Positions 9,224 to 13,011 of a DNA stretch of 36,179 nt are shown here, piece by piece. The DNA is from Chloroflexota bacterium (GTDB lineage Bacteria; Chloroflexota; Anaerolineae; Promineifilales; Promineifilaceae): positions 1 to 36,179 of the forward strand of contig JAGVTM010000587.1 in assembly GCA_019136785.1 (NCBI GenBank). The letters are read 5' to 3'. Position 1 is the stretch's first letter. Each line of letters begins with the position of its first letter. The translations under genes and the position numbers were made by a program. The notes under the pieces were generated by a model. It saw nothing but the letters and a program-made list of their open reading frames with translations, made no database searches and had not been told where the DNA came from.

Positions 9224-9973
9224 TTACAGTTCAAGCTGCTGCATCACAGCCAGAATACGCGCCATGTCTTCGCCATGCCCGCTGCGATACACAATGGGCA
9301 GCGATTGCACTACCTGACCATCCTTGAGGAAGATCACGCGGTCGGCGTAACTGGCGGCGCGCGGGTCATGGGTGACCATCACAATCGTCTGCTGCATCTC
9401 CTGGCTGGAACGGCGCAGCAACTGCAAGATGGCGGCTCCGGAGCGGGAGTCCAGGTTGCCGGTTGGCTCATCCGCCAGCACAATTTCCGGCTCATTCACA
9501 AAGGCGCGGGCAATGGCCACCCGCTGCTGCTGCCCGCCGCTCATCTGGTCGGGACGGTGTCCGCCGCGATCTGCCAGCCCGACCATATCGAGCAAGCCGT
9601 GTATCCGCTGCCGGTGGGGCGCCAGATGCTGCCCATCTATCAGCAGGGGCAGGGCTACATTTTCCTCGGCGGTCAGGGTGGGGAGCAGGTTGTAAAACTG
9701 GAAAATGAAGCCTACTTTGCGGCGGCGGGTGAGCGTGACCTGATTGTCGGATTGGTGCGATAGTTCACTGCCGGCCAGGACAATGCTGCCGGAGGTAGGC
9801 TCATCCAGCCCGCCTAGCAGGTGGAGCAGAGTGCTTTTGCCGGAGCCGGAGGGGCCCATCACGGCGACAAATTCGCCTCTGGCGACTTCCAGGCTGACGT
9901 CGTCCAGGGCACGCACAGTCACGGCGCCCATTTGATAATATTTGGATACGTTTCTGGCTTCTAGTACAGGCAT
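9224..9973 (-). CDS. ABC transporter ATP-binding protein, LolD/MacB type
   Basis: The 249-residue nucleotide-binding subunit energises the fused FtsX permease encoded next. Visible motifs are Walker [10 protein letters not shown] (residues 40-48), the Q-loop [10 protein letters not shown] (about 89-98), the signature MSGGQQQR (144-151), Walker [15 protein letters not shown] (about 163-176) and the switch His in VTHDP (H202). The trailing GNLDS form is typical of the LolD/MacB/FtsE group. ATG 9973 was chosen because the ABC fold begins directly ([16 protein letters not shown]). The upstream extension to 10057 looks like untranslated leader. Only a weak AGAAAGAAACA precedes the ATG. It is the first gene of the three-gene exporter operon; a TATAAT (10086-10081, minus) about 110 nt upstream may serve it. 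Confidence 0.95.
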
Positions 9974-10080
9974 TGTTTCTTTCTGTCGTCTTGCTTTGTA
10001 ACCGGGGCGCATCGCACGTCTGGCGGTTGGATAGATGCGCCAGATTTGCCCAGGCATGGTTGTTACCAGGCAGCGTATGA

Positions 10081-10086: not shown

Positions 10087-10143
10087 GCAAAAAAAAGCAG
10101 TTCGTGACTGATTTCACAAATGAGGCGCGTGCCCCCATCCCCC

Positions 10144-10211
10144 AGCCCCCTTCCCCCCAGAGGGGAAGGGGGCTTTCGGAGAGGGCGAGGGGCGCTGCGC
10201 GCCCCTCGCCC
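10144..10211. repeat. Two GC-rich intergenic hairpins
   Basis: Arms 10144-10156 and 10162-10174 are a perfect 13-bp inverted repeat with a 5-nt loop. Arms 10183-10195 and 10199-10211 are another perfect 13-bp repeat with a 3-nt loop. They sit between divergent transcription units (exporter operon leftward, translation genes rightward), in a C/G-homopolymer-rich stretch that looks like dispersed intergenic repeat material. A GGCGCTGCGCGCCC motif recurs just after (10224-10240). Confidence 0.75.
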
Positions 10212-10305
10212 TACATTACCCCTTCCCTGGCGGGGGCGCTGCGCGCCCTTGTCCACCATTACCCCTTCCGTGGCAATGGGACGGCAGCTTTTGGGTTTTT
10301 GCAAA

Positions 10306-10334
10306 TTGACAAAGCGCTCTCTGGCGGCTATAAT
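10306..10334 (+). promoter_or_regulatory. Near-ideal sigma70-type promoter
   Basis: TTGACA (10306-10311) and TATAAT (10329-10334) both match the bacterial consensus exactly and are separated by the optimal 17 bp. The predicted start is around 10340-10342. It is the strongest promoter visible in the window and does not directly abut a long gene; the next feature is a short structured transcript ending in a terminator. Confidence 0.85.
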
Positions 10335-10390
10335 TTCCAGGTTCCACTCTTTACCATGGGCGTTTTACAATTGCATAACGCAGGTTCAGA

Positions 10391-10513
10391 ATGGAAGAGC
10401 AACACGAGTACGCTCAAGTAACTGGCCTGGGATTGTTGTTTTCGTTAGCGAGCAGAAGTCATCTTGGTTGTCACGATACGGTAAGCAAAGTCTTCAAAAA
10501 AGTTACAGGATAA
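10391..10513 (+). CDS. Possible 40-residue small protein
   Basis: ATG 10391 opens 40 codons ending with TAA at 10511-10513, exactly between the consensus promoter and the terminator. The product would begin MEEQHEYAQVTGLG and end in KVFKKVTG, with a short hydrophobic stretch (GLGLLFSLA), two His, one Cys and a basic tail. A weak GCAGG stands 6 nt before the ATG. No family is recognised. An ORF this short can arise by chance, and the surrounding RNA may be non-coding. Confidence 0.25.
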   Translation: MEEQHEYAQVTGLGLLFSLASRSHLGCHDTVSKVFKKVTG

Positions 10514-10518
10514 GAGAG

Positions 10519-10556
10519 GCTCGGTGGTATGCTCAGGAAATACGCCGGGCTTTTTT
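10519..10556 (+). terminator. Intrinsic terminator
   Basis: Stem arms GCTCGGTG (10519-10526) and CGCCGGGC (10543-10550) pair over 8 bp with two G-U wobbles across a 16-nt loop, and TTTTTTGTTT follows at once. It ends the unit begun at 10306 and would separate it from rpsA, or attenuate transcription into rpsA. Confidence 0.65.
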
Positions 10557-10570
10557 GTTTGTAACTATTT

Positions 10571-10618
10571 ACCGCAAAGACGCAAAGAACGCAAAGATAA
10601 AGAGAAGAACTTTGCGGT
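10571..10618. repeat. Dispersed CGCAAAGACGCAAAG-type repeat
   Basis: This begins with ACCGCAAAG and closes with CTTTGCGGT (10610-10618), perfect 9-bp arms around a purine-rich loop of CGCAAAG-like units. Related tracts occur at 12677-12740 and 33561-33667, and a fragment lies near 4760-4790. All are intergenic. Origin unknown; the shared arms suggest one palindromic repeat family. Confidence 0.65.
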
Positions 10619-10690
10619 CGCCGGCTCCTTCGCGGTTAAATCCCAAAGGGATTGTATAGTTACAATTACAATAGGAAACACACTCTGTAG

Positions 10691-12304
10691 ATGGATAACG
10701 AAGGTTTTGACTACTCCCAAGCCGATATGAGTCAGCTCCTGGAAGAGCATGATTACGACATGCCCAAGGAAGGCGACATGCGCACGGGCGTCATCGTCAG
10801 CATGACGCCGCAGGGCATTATTCTGGACTTAGGCCTCAAGCGAGACGGTCTGGTTCCCCCTTCTGAAGTTAACAAATTGGCGGACGAGATAAAAGAGAAG
10901 CTAAAGGTTAACGAAGAAGTGCTGGTGTACATTGAAAACACCCGCGAACCAGATAGTTTGCACGTCTCCATCCAGAAGGCGCTGCTCTACCAGGATTGGA
11001 TTCAAGCCGAAGAGCTGATGCACAGCGGTCAGATTATTGAAGTGGAAATTGCCCAGTTCAATCGCGGCGGGGCCATTGCCCCGTTTGGCAATTTGCGCGG
11101 CTTCATTCCTGCTTCCCACCTGACCGACTTTAGCCGCAATATGAGCGACAAAGTGCGGCAGCAGCGCATTAACCGGCTGCGCGGCGAAAAGATTCCGGTG
11201 AAGATCATCGAAGTTGACCGGGACCGCCGCCGCCTGGTGATGTCGCAGCGGGATGCGCAAAAAGAGTGGGCTGAGGCGCGGCGGCAAGAGTTGATGCAAA
11301 AGCTCAACGTGGGCGACGTGGTCTCGGGCCGCGTTACGGGGATGCGCGACTTTGGCGCGTTCGTGGACATTGGCGGCGCAGATGGGTTGATTCACATTTC
11401 GGAACTGGCCTGGCACCGCGTCAAACACCCACGGGACGTGGTGAAGGTGGGCGACGAAGTCGAGGTGTATATCCTGAAGCTGGAACACGATTCGCAGCGC
11501 ATTGCCCTCAGCCGGCGGCGCGCCGTCCCCAGCCCCTGGGAACTGGCAGTGGAAAAGTATGCCACGGGCCAGTTGGTGGAAGGCACGGTGACGCGGCTGG
11601 TGGATTATGGCGCATTTGTGCAGGTGGAGCCCGGTATTGAGGGGCTGCTGCACATCTCCCAACTTTCCGCCTCCAATGTGGGGCATCCGCGCGAAGTGGT
11701 GCGTGAGGGCGAAGTGCATCTGCTGCGGGTGATCAGTTTTACACCGGAACGGCAGCGCATTGGCTTGAGCCTGAAAGCGGTCACCACCAGTGAGCAAATG
11801 GAATGGATGGCGCGCAAGAACGCCGAAGCGCAGGCTGAAGCGACCGCCAAAGCAGAGGCTAAGGCGAAAGCCGCCGCCAAAGCAGAAGCCGCTGCCACAG
11901 CGGAGGTCGCTGCCGCAGCGGAGGCTGCCCAAGCAGAAGGTGAAGCTGAGTCTGCTGCCGCAGCCGCTGCCGAAATGGAAGCCCCGGCTGAAGTAGAAGC
12001 CGCTGTGGAAATGGAAGCCCCGGTTGAAGTAGAAGCCGCCGTGGAAATGGAAGCCCTGGCTGAAGTAGAAGCTGCCGTGGAAATGGAAGCCCCTTCTGAA
12101 ACAGAAGCTGCTGCTGAAATGGAAGTCGCTGCCGCAGCAGAAGCTCCGGTTGAAACGGAAGTCGCTGCCGAAATGGAAACCCCGGAAATGGGCATTGACG
12201 AAGAAGCGATGGCTGCCGACAAACAGGCAGAAATGGCAGCCGAAATGGCAGATTTGCCCCCTATGGATGATATTGGGGATGCCGGCAGCGAAGAAGAAGA
12301 GTGA
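10691..12304 (+). CDS. rpsA: 30S ribosomal protein S1
   Basis: S1 binds mRNA on the 30S subunit and helps initiation on structured or weakly Shine-Dalgarno messages. Four S1 (OB-fold) repeats are visible: about residues 28-95 (VIVSMTPQGIILDLGLKRDG), 113-184 (a diverged repeat, LRGFIPASHLTD), 202-270 (GRVTGMRDFGAFVDIGGADG) and 289-357 (GTVTRLVDYGAFVQVEPGIEG). The last two are the most canonical. Residues about 375-537 are a low-complexity acidic Ala/Glu/Met tail that includes a 12-residue tandem repeat. A four-domain S1 is common outside Proteobacteria; the long tail is unusual. Start 10691 has only AGGA 14 nt away, a weak site, which fits the family's own translation style but leaves the start slightly open (an in-frame ATG lies at 10727). 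Confidence 0.95.
   Translation: MDNEGFDYSQADMSQLLEEHDYDMPKEGDMRTGVIVSMTPQGIILDLGLKRDGLVPPSEVNKLADEIKEKLKVNEEVLVYIENTREPDSLHVSIQKALLYQDWIQAEELMHSGQIIEVEIAQFNRGGAIAPFGNLRGFIPASHLTDFSRNMSDKVRQQRINRLRGEKIPVKIIEVDRDRRRLVMSQRDAQKEWAEARRQELMQKLNVGDVVSGRVTGMRDFGAFVDIGGADGLIHISELAWHRVKHPRDVVKVGDEVEVYILKLEHDSQRIALSRRRAVPSPWELAVEKYATGQLVEGTVTRLVDYGAFVQVEPGIEGLLHISQLSASNVGHPREVVREGEVHLLRVISFTPERQRIGLSLKAVTTSEQMEWMARKNAEAQAEATAKAEAKAKAAAKAEAAATAEVAAAAEAAQAEGEAESAAAAAAEMEAPAEVEAAVEMEAPVEVEAAVEMEALAEVEAAVEMEAPSETEAAAEMEVAAAAEAPVETEVAAEMETPEMGIDEEAMAADKQAEMAAEMADLPPMDDIGDAGSEEEE
11972..12115 (+). repeat. 36-bp in-frame tandem repeats in rpsA tail
   Basis: Four units begin at 11972, 12008, 12044 and 12080, each encoding a variant of the 12-residue unit EMEAPAEVEAAV. 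Diverged units continue to about 12180. Being a multiple of three, copy-number changes would keep the frame and only alter tail length. Confidence 0.85.
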
Positions 12305-12383: not shown

Positions 12384-12581
12384 ATGGCCCACGTAAAACT
12401 AATGCCTAACGAAACGGACGAAAGCCTGCTCAAGCGTTTTCGCAAGAAAGTGGCTAAGTCCGGCACCATGAGCGTTATCCGGCGCAAGCGCTGGCACGTT
12501 TCGCGCAGCGAACTGCGCCGCATTCAAAAGAAAAAGGCTGTGCGCCGCATGAGACGGCGACAAACCTATCGCACGCCCTGA
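12384..12581 (+). CDS. rpsU: 30S ribosomal protein S21
   Basis: This 65-residue, strongly basic protein matches bS21: it has the ESLLKRFRKKV core and a C-terminal run of Arg/Lys (KKKAVRRMRRRQ). It binds the platform of the small subunit near the anti-Shine-Dalgarno and favours initiation. A textbook AAGGAGGTGAG lies 5-6 nt before ATG 12384, in contrast to the weak site of rpsA just upstream. It follows rpsA by 79 bp, a spacer containing a weak AAGTGCG/CGCACTT inverted repeat, so it is probably co-transcribed. Confidence 0.93.
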   Translation: MAHVKLMPNETDESLLKRFRKKVAKSGTMSVIRRKRWHVSRSELRRIQKKKAVRRMRRRQTYRTP

Positions 12582-12756: not shown

Positions 12757-13011
12757 ATGGCTAAAAAAGAAGATAAGCTGCAAGTAGAGGGCACAATAGT
12801 CGAAGCCTTACCCAACACCCAGTTCCTGGTGGAACTGGATAATGGGCATAAGGTGTTGGCTTACCTGTCCGGCAAAATGCGTCGTTACTACATCCGAATT
12901 TTGGTGGGAGACCGTGTCCGCGTGGAAATGACCCCCTACGACCTGGAGCGAGGTCGCATCACCTACCGCTATCGCAACAGCGCCAGTTTCGTTCCCTCTG
13001 CCAATCGCTAA
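12757..13011 (+). CDS. infA: Translation initiation factor IF-1
   Basis: The 84-residue protein is a single S1/OB fold ([21 protein letters not shown], then [32 protein letters not shown]). IF-1 occupies the A site of the 30S subunit and assists IF-2 and IF-3. The typical length is 72, so about 10 extra C-terminal residues ([11 protein letters not shown]) are present. ATG 12757 was chosen because MAKKEDK is the normal IF-1 start and AAAAGAGG lies 3-4 nt upstream; the longer frame from 12721 lies within repeat DNA. Being next to rpsU and outside the usual ribosomal-protein operon is mildly unusual. Confidence 0.95.

Follow-up and report, generated by a model that had tools for sequence, protein, structure and literature searches.

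Ribosomal protein S1 binds RNA, and the S1 of Escherichia coli represses its own mRNA at the level of translation; S1 feedback in gamma-proteobacteria is likewise described as translational repression (PMC10931766). The leaders of rplJL (L10(L12)4) and L20 in Bacillus subtilis are presented in the same source as acting by attenuation, the rplJL leader through alternative antiterminator and terminator structures and with a defined protein-binding motif (PMC10931766). The rimP-leader is described as an attenuator whose conservation lies in a short terminator stem, no larger element having been found (PMC2965389).

Here, we describe a unit upstream of rpsA in a window of 36,179 nucleotides (the whole stretch of DNA analysed) from a Chloroflexota bacterium of the order Promineifilales. 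Comparative sequence evidence makes it probable, in our judgment, that this unit, rather than being a free-standing gene, forms the 5' leader of the transcript encoding S1 (rpsA) and is built as a transcription attenuator. Like the B. subtilis rplJL and L20 leaders, it places r-protein genes behind an attenuation-type leader, and the alternative structures described for rplJL resemble those proposed below (PMC10931766). The proteins concerned are different, however, no counterpart of the rplJL protein-binding motif is recognised in the rpsA leader, and the constant parts of the latter are its promoter and terminator stem. With the autoregulation of E. coli rpsA by bS1, as outlined in PMC10931766, it would share both the gene and control through the gene's own 5' region, but the E. 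coli system acts on translation via the initiation region, whereas the anatomy here is that of transcription termination. The rimP-leader precedes another gene and has the stem GGGc..gCCC rather than CUCGG..CCGAG, and the main text of the paper describing it has no match to "rpsA" (PMC2965389). No title or abstract opening in the open-access literature searched, a scope outside which most subscription papers fall, has an rpsA attenuator as its subject.

Anatomy of the unit and its surroundings

The unit opens with an exact consensus promoter on the plus strand (TTGACA-17-TATAAT, 10306-10334; 12/12 positions, spacer of 17 nt), which had been claimed from the sequence alone and was borne out by a consensus scan. 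Genome G000, which holds this promoter, has in its 3.99 Mb 12 exact sites with a spacer of 16 or 17 and none of the pattern read backwards, so the exact-consensus site is a real promoter type in G000, though not unique to the rpsA locus. Together with the 11 other sites, the promoter makes up the set L157-L168, in which 11 of the 12 are minus-strand sites on their contigs; no tRNA or Rfam matches were found in these 12 loci (1.7-3 kb each). With the transcript start placed 7 nt after the -10 box, here as in every other leader, the rpsA leader RNA would run from 10341 to 10556 on the plus strand, between the positions of promoter and terminator; its position is conserved, its sequence poorly so.

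The hairpin and U run said to close the unit are likewise found, as an intrinsic terminator at 10513-10556 with the U-run in the hairpin base (-19.6 kcal/mol, z -3.98, 0/200 shuffles as good). On the plus strand, the 5' arm spans 10513-10530, with its CUCGG core at 10520-10524, and the 3' arm with the U-run spans 10540-10556 (U-run 10551-10556). This terminator is not listed by the consensus scan, presumably because of its bulge and 9-nt loop. The fold of the whole 218-nt unit is no better than that of shuffles (z -1.03, 34/200 as good).

On its upstream side, the leader is flanked by an ABC transporter gene that is transcribed divergently from the minus strand (9224-10057), and the intergenic stretch before the promoter is dense in G+C-rich inverted repeats of the CCCCTTCCCC/GGGGAAGGGG and GCGCCCCTCGCCC types (10130-10245). 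The next gene downstream is rpsA (10691-12304, plus strand), as the sequence-only reading had named it: its product has four S1 domains (four stretches of Pfam PF00575) and an Ala/Glu-rich tail, and its best NCBIfam models are those of 30S S1, with scores below the cut-offs of those models. Two further plus-strand ORFs follow, which by their sequences we take to be rpsU (bS21; 12384-12581) and infA (IF-1; 12757-13011); tblastn matched rpsU in 9 and infA in 40 of 46 loci, a set that includes the window's own and differs from the 46 leaders treated below, with the infA matches outside the window being 70-88% identical. Inserted between the terminator and rpsA is a repeat of the GCAAAGA/CTTTGCG type (10570-10655, limits approximate and set by eye); a similar CGCAAAGA/CTTTGCG repeat occurs within the leader of L231 (family f33).

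The window's gap from the terminator to the rpsA start is 134 nt, and since the scan listed no promoter in it, rpsA transcription most likely passes through the terminator. The terminator would thus most likely lie within the rpsA 5' UTR, which makes the earlier description of the unit as self-contained misleading.

Conservation of the leader within the order and the class

A DNA search of 59 genomes with the unit gave no match above noise other than the unit's own (the next best had E 0.0275), and the comparison was therefore made via the rpsA gene; all leaders were located through it, and their linkage to rpsA is thus given by construction. This yielded 46 readable leaders, 44 from the window's family (window included) and two from its sister family. 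Omitted from the set were L062 (contig ending 12 nt before the match), L121 (at a contig end, with a terminator present but a sequence not reaching the promoter) and L122 (a second S1 copy with no match to the query); also outside it are a leader at G010:C304, with both promoter and terminator seen, and G027:C461 and G033:C408, where a terminator and an rpsA start were seen by eye.

Both ends of the unit are conserved. The promoter is exact (12/12) in 45 of the 46 leaders and matches at 11/12 positions in the remaining one, always with a spacer of 16 or 17, and leader length varies from 172 to 244 nt. The CUCGG arm of the terminator, whose ends were set by a script picking the best hairpin before a T-run, is near-invariant; over the 46 leaders, 95.3% of cells in the terminator helix are paired, and the helix covaries beyond chance (0.270 vs 0.193 in shuffles, 0/500 of which reach it). 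A candidate in-frame rpsA start, one of several per gene in some rows, stands 27-69 nt after the U-run in 42/46 leaders, compared with the window's 134 nt; the exceptions are L041 (134), L046 (163 or more), L059 (none found) and L117 (14). A gap of 27-69 nt leaves little room for another promoter, which suggests that rpsA is made by read-through.

Other parts vary. The neighbour on the upstream side is not constant: in a crude test on the 44 loci with enough sequence, the longest ORF there points away in 21 loci and towards the leader in 23. The leader interior is hardly conserved in sequence over the 46, and no common interior structure could be aligned: a mixed set of 15 leaders failed, and within clades mainly local helices were found. 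Three features had been named whose loss in related genomes would tell against the sequence-only reading; promoter and hairpin are kept, and the 40-codon ORF alone is not. Moreover, an intrinsic terminator lies between promoter and first gene in the 46 leaders, as in attenuation leaders, and in many species (the 46 leaders and further families) the leader stands before the gene of the r-protein proposed to regulate it. It is the spacing, together with this conservation within the order, that makes the case for an attenuator; an rpsA attenuator leader had been among the identities offered from the sequence, and it is the one that the conserved promoter, the conserved terminator and the terminator-to-start distance support.

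The leader is real and conserved in the order, and many families of the class have it too, although beyond the order it is not found universally. The same succession of promoter, leader and terminator precedes rpsA in f15 and f19. For the wider class, 59 of 160 genomes gave an rpsA match at E <= 1e-99; they supplied 40 rpsA regions, of which 39 were usable (L229, of 79 nt, was too short). Outside the order, a promoter of at least 11/12 was present in 28/39 (15 exact) and absent from 11/39, counted at any position in the available sequence, which extends at most 700 nt upstream and, in L234, no more than 125 nt ahead of the match. A hairpin of the CUCGG/CCCGG type folds in 19/20 units from ten further families, a figure that confirms hairpins and not their frequency, the 20 having been selected by visual inspection because they showed a stem of the CUCGG, CCCGG or a similar kind; L245 showed no hairpin by the folding script, though the scan of the class regions had flagged one. 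L210 (f30) has the promoter, and inspection revealed no terminator there. A promoter of at least 11/12 occurred in only 4/19 regions of a previous class sample (L125-L143), whose rpsA matches were weaker and of unsure orthology. By eye, the f43 leaders L215, L216, L219 and L235 share similar blocks, TTCGGCT.C..GGCCGGACT and TCTCTGATC(C/T)TGTGT, possibly a family-specific RNA domain.

A candidate antiterminator and competing explanations

In the window's leader, the stretch that best complements the terminator's 5' arm is UACCAUGGGC (10352-10361, plus strand), a candidate 5' antiterminator strand. Its pairing with 10519-10529 is predicted at -12.8 kcal/mol, with 16% of shuffled 5' ends as good, and has pair probabilities of 0.09-0.15, or 0.0 by the fold measure without the 3' arm. 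Among relatives, the best arm complement falls inside the first 45 nt in 36/46 leaders, against 31% in shuffles, and in 22/32 representatives, where 11.5 were expected (p = 1.6e-4). When the 3' arm is left out of the fold, the core arm pairs with the 5' end at a mean probability > 0.5 in 36/46, and in a MAFFT alignment made without structure the 5' strand GGCUGAG and the arm CUCGGCC pair in 86.8% of cells, a value that drops to 19-52% when the strand is slid. Covariation of this pairing is not seen beyond shuffles (86.8% paired vs 86.7%), only 15/46 leaders have a 5' end that does better than shuffled versions of itself at p <= 0.05, and a swap test was weak (p = 0.012 and 0.048 for the 46 leaders, 0.17 and 0.24 for the 32 representatives). 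Outside the order, the 5'-end position of the arm complement is not enriched (7/20 vs 6.6 expected). A 5'-end antiterminator is therefore a good but tentative proposal, for this order only. The closing stem suggested earlier, 10344-10355 with 10508-10519, fared poorly, at -7.2 kcal/mol with 27.8% of mononucleotide shuffles as good and pair probabilities of 0.002 or less.

The choice between terminator and antiterminator might instead be made by translation. In such a leader, 30S subunits or ribosomes on GGAGG would decide the outcome, and initiation capacity would control S1 and IF-1. GGAGG occurs in 17/46 leader interiors (6.9% expected), in some cases followed by ORFs of 2-7 codons, and an infA-type gene does follow rpsA. 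However, the strength of Shine-Dalgarno-plus-start signals in the leaders is not enriched overall (p = 0.15), L109 and L115 have GGAGG with no start codon behind it, and the window's own leader lacks GGAGG, and we regard a translation-sensing leader as unlikely.

Specificity for rpsA bears on the idea of an abundant trans-acting small RNA encoded beside it, whose 3' end would be the terminator and next to which rpsA would be expressed by leaky read-through or from another promoter. A route independent of rpsA was provided by the terminator pattern CTCGGC..GNCGAGTTTT, which was matched 45 times in the 51 family genomes, across 34 of them; a tally of rows puts 28 of these matches at rpsA and 17 at other places. 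The backward control gave 35 over the same genomes, so matches away from rpsA are no more than chance, and those at rpsA recur. The strict pattern misses 17/51 family genomes, the window's among them, and in three genomes (G010, G027 and G033) it uncovered leader stretches, ahead of an rpsA start, that are absent from the protein-search results. A scan of contigs for rpsA returned 10 S1-domain loci, none of the four looked at being informative. The second S1 paralogue, present in eight family genomes (L144-L151), has TTGCCA-16-TATAAT in 8/8, about 95-147 nt before the match; in its 8 regions no CUCGG terminator was flagged, and the one terminator-like site picked out (L145) is of another type. 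A strong promoter and a terminator about 200 nt apart would suit a small RNA gene, and the conserved CUCGG arm could serve as its seed; yet the concentration of pattern matches at rpsA, the short distance to that gene while the other neighbour varies, the hardly conserved interior and the window scan, with no promoter listed between terminator and rpsA, make such a gene improbable.

In several clades, the leaders adopt multibranched folds closed by a 5' element, as might a metabolite-binding riboswitch or another ligand-sensing leader that controls rpsA in place of S1 feedback. No conserved aptamer-like core extends across the family, though, and Rfam 15 gave no match at the gathering score in the window, in 20 family loci or in 20 class loci; at E up to 10, none of the 49 matches in the window falls inside 10341-10556. 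We accordingly give ligand sensing a small chance.

The 40-codon ORF of the sequence-only reading does exist (10391-10513, plus strand), but it is probably not a gene: a closed ATG ORF of at least 30 codons is found in only 3/46 leaders, and this lack of conservation, with the unenriched start signals, led us to reject both a small-protein gene and short upstream ORFs. A 6S-type RNA, prompted by a length near 200 nt and the proposed end pairing, is hardly credible, since RF00013 places the 6S RNA of G000 on another contig (C533:10148-10324, 64.6 bits, above the cut-off), and covariance searches with 6S and other families gave no match in the unit.

Proposed control of rpsA and its significance

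As an attenuator, the rpsA leader would work as follows. The consensus promoter would fire strongly, and the intrinsic terminator about 170-250 nt downstream, usually 27-69 nt before the rpsA start, would stop part of the transcripts; read-through would yield rpsA mRNA and, probably, that of the infA-type gene downstream as well. In the window's family, the 5' end of the transcript would pair with the CUCGG terminator arm and act as an antiterminator. Excess S1, a single-strand RNA binder, may then occupy the leader or the antiterminator strand, and termination would be favoured. S1 itself is the likeliest signal by analogy with the autorepression of S1 in E. coli and the L10 and L20 attenuation leaders of B. 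subtilis, and the enrichment of GGAGG in leader interiors leaves room for a mechanism based on 30S loading. More tentatively, and with doubts that outweigh our confidence, an attenuator dedicated to S1 and shared by many families of a single class can be envisaged, in which S1 or S1-dependent 30S loading would choose between the CUCGG terminator and the 5'-end antiterminator and so set S1, IF-1 and sometimes S21 together.

No Rfam family covers the rpsA leader, and Rfam-based annotation therefore misses it; its conserved terminator stem offers a testable handle. The arrangement may be an undescribed gene switch, and a transcription attenuator on rpsA, if true, would be a different solution to the problem of S1 feedback than translational repression.
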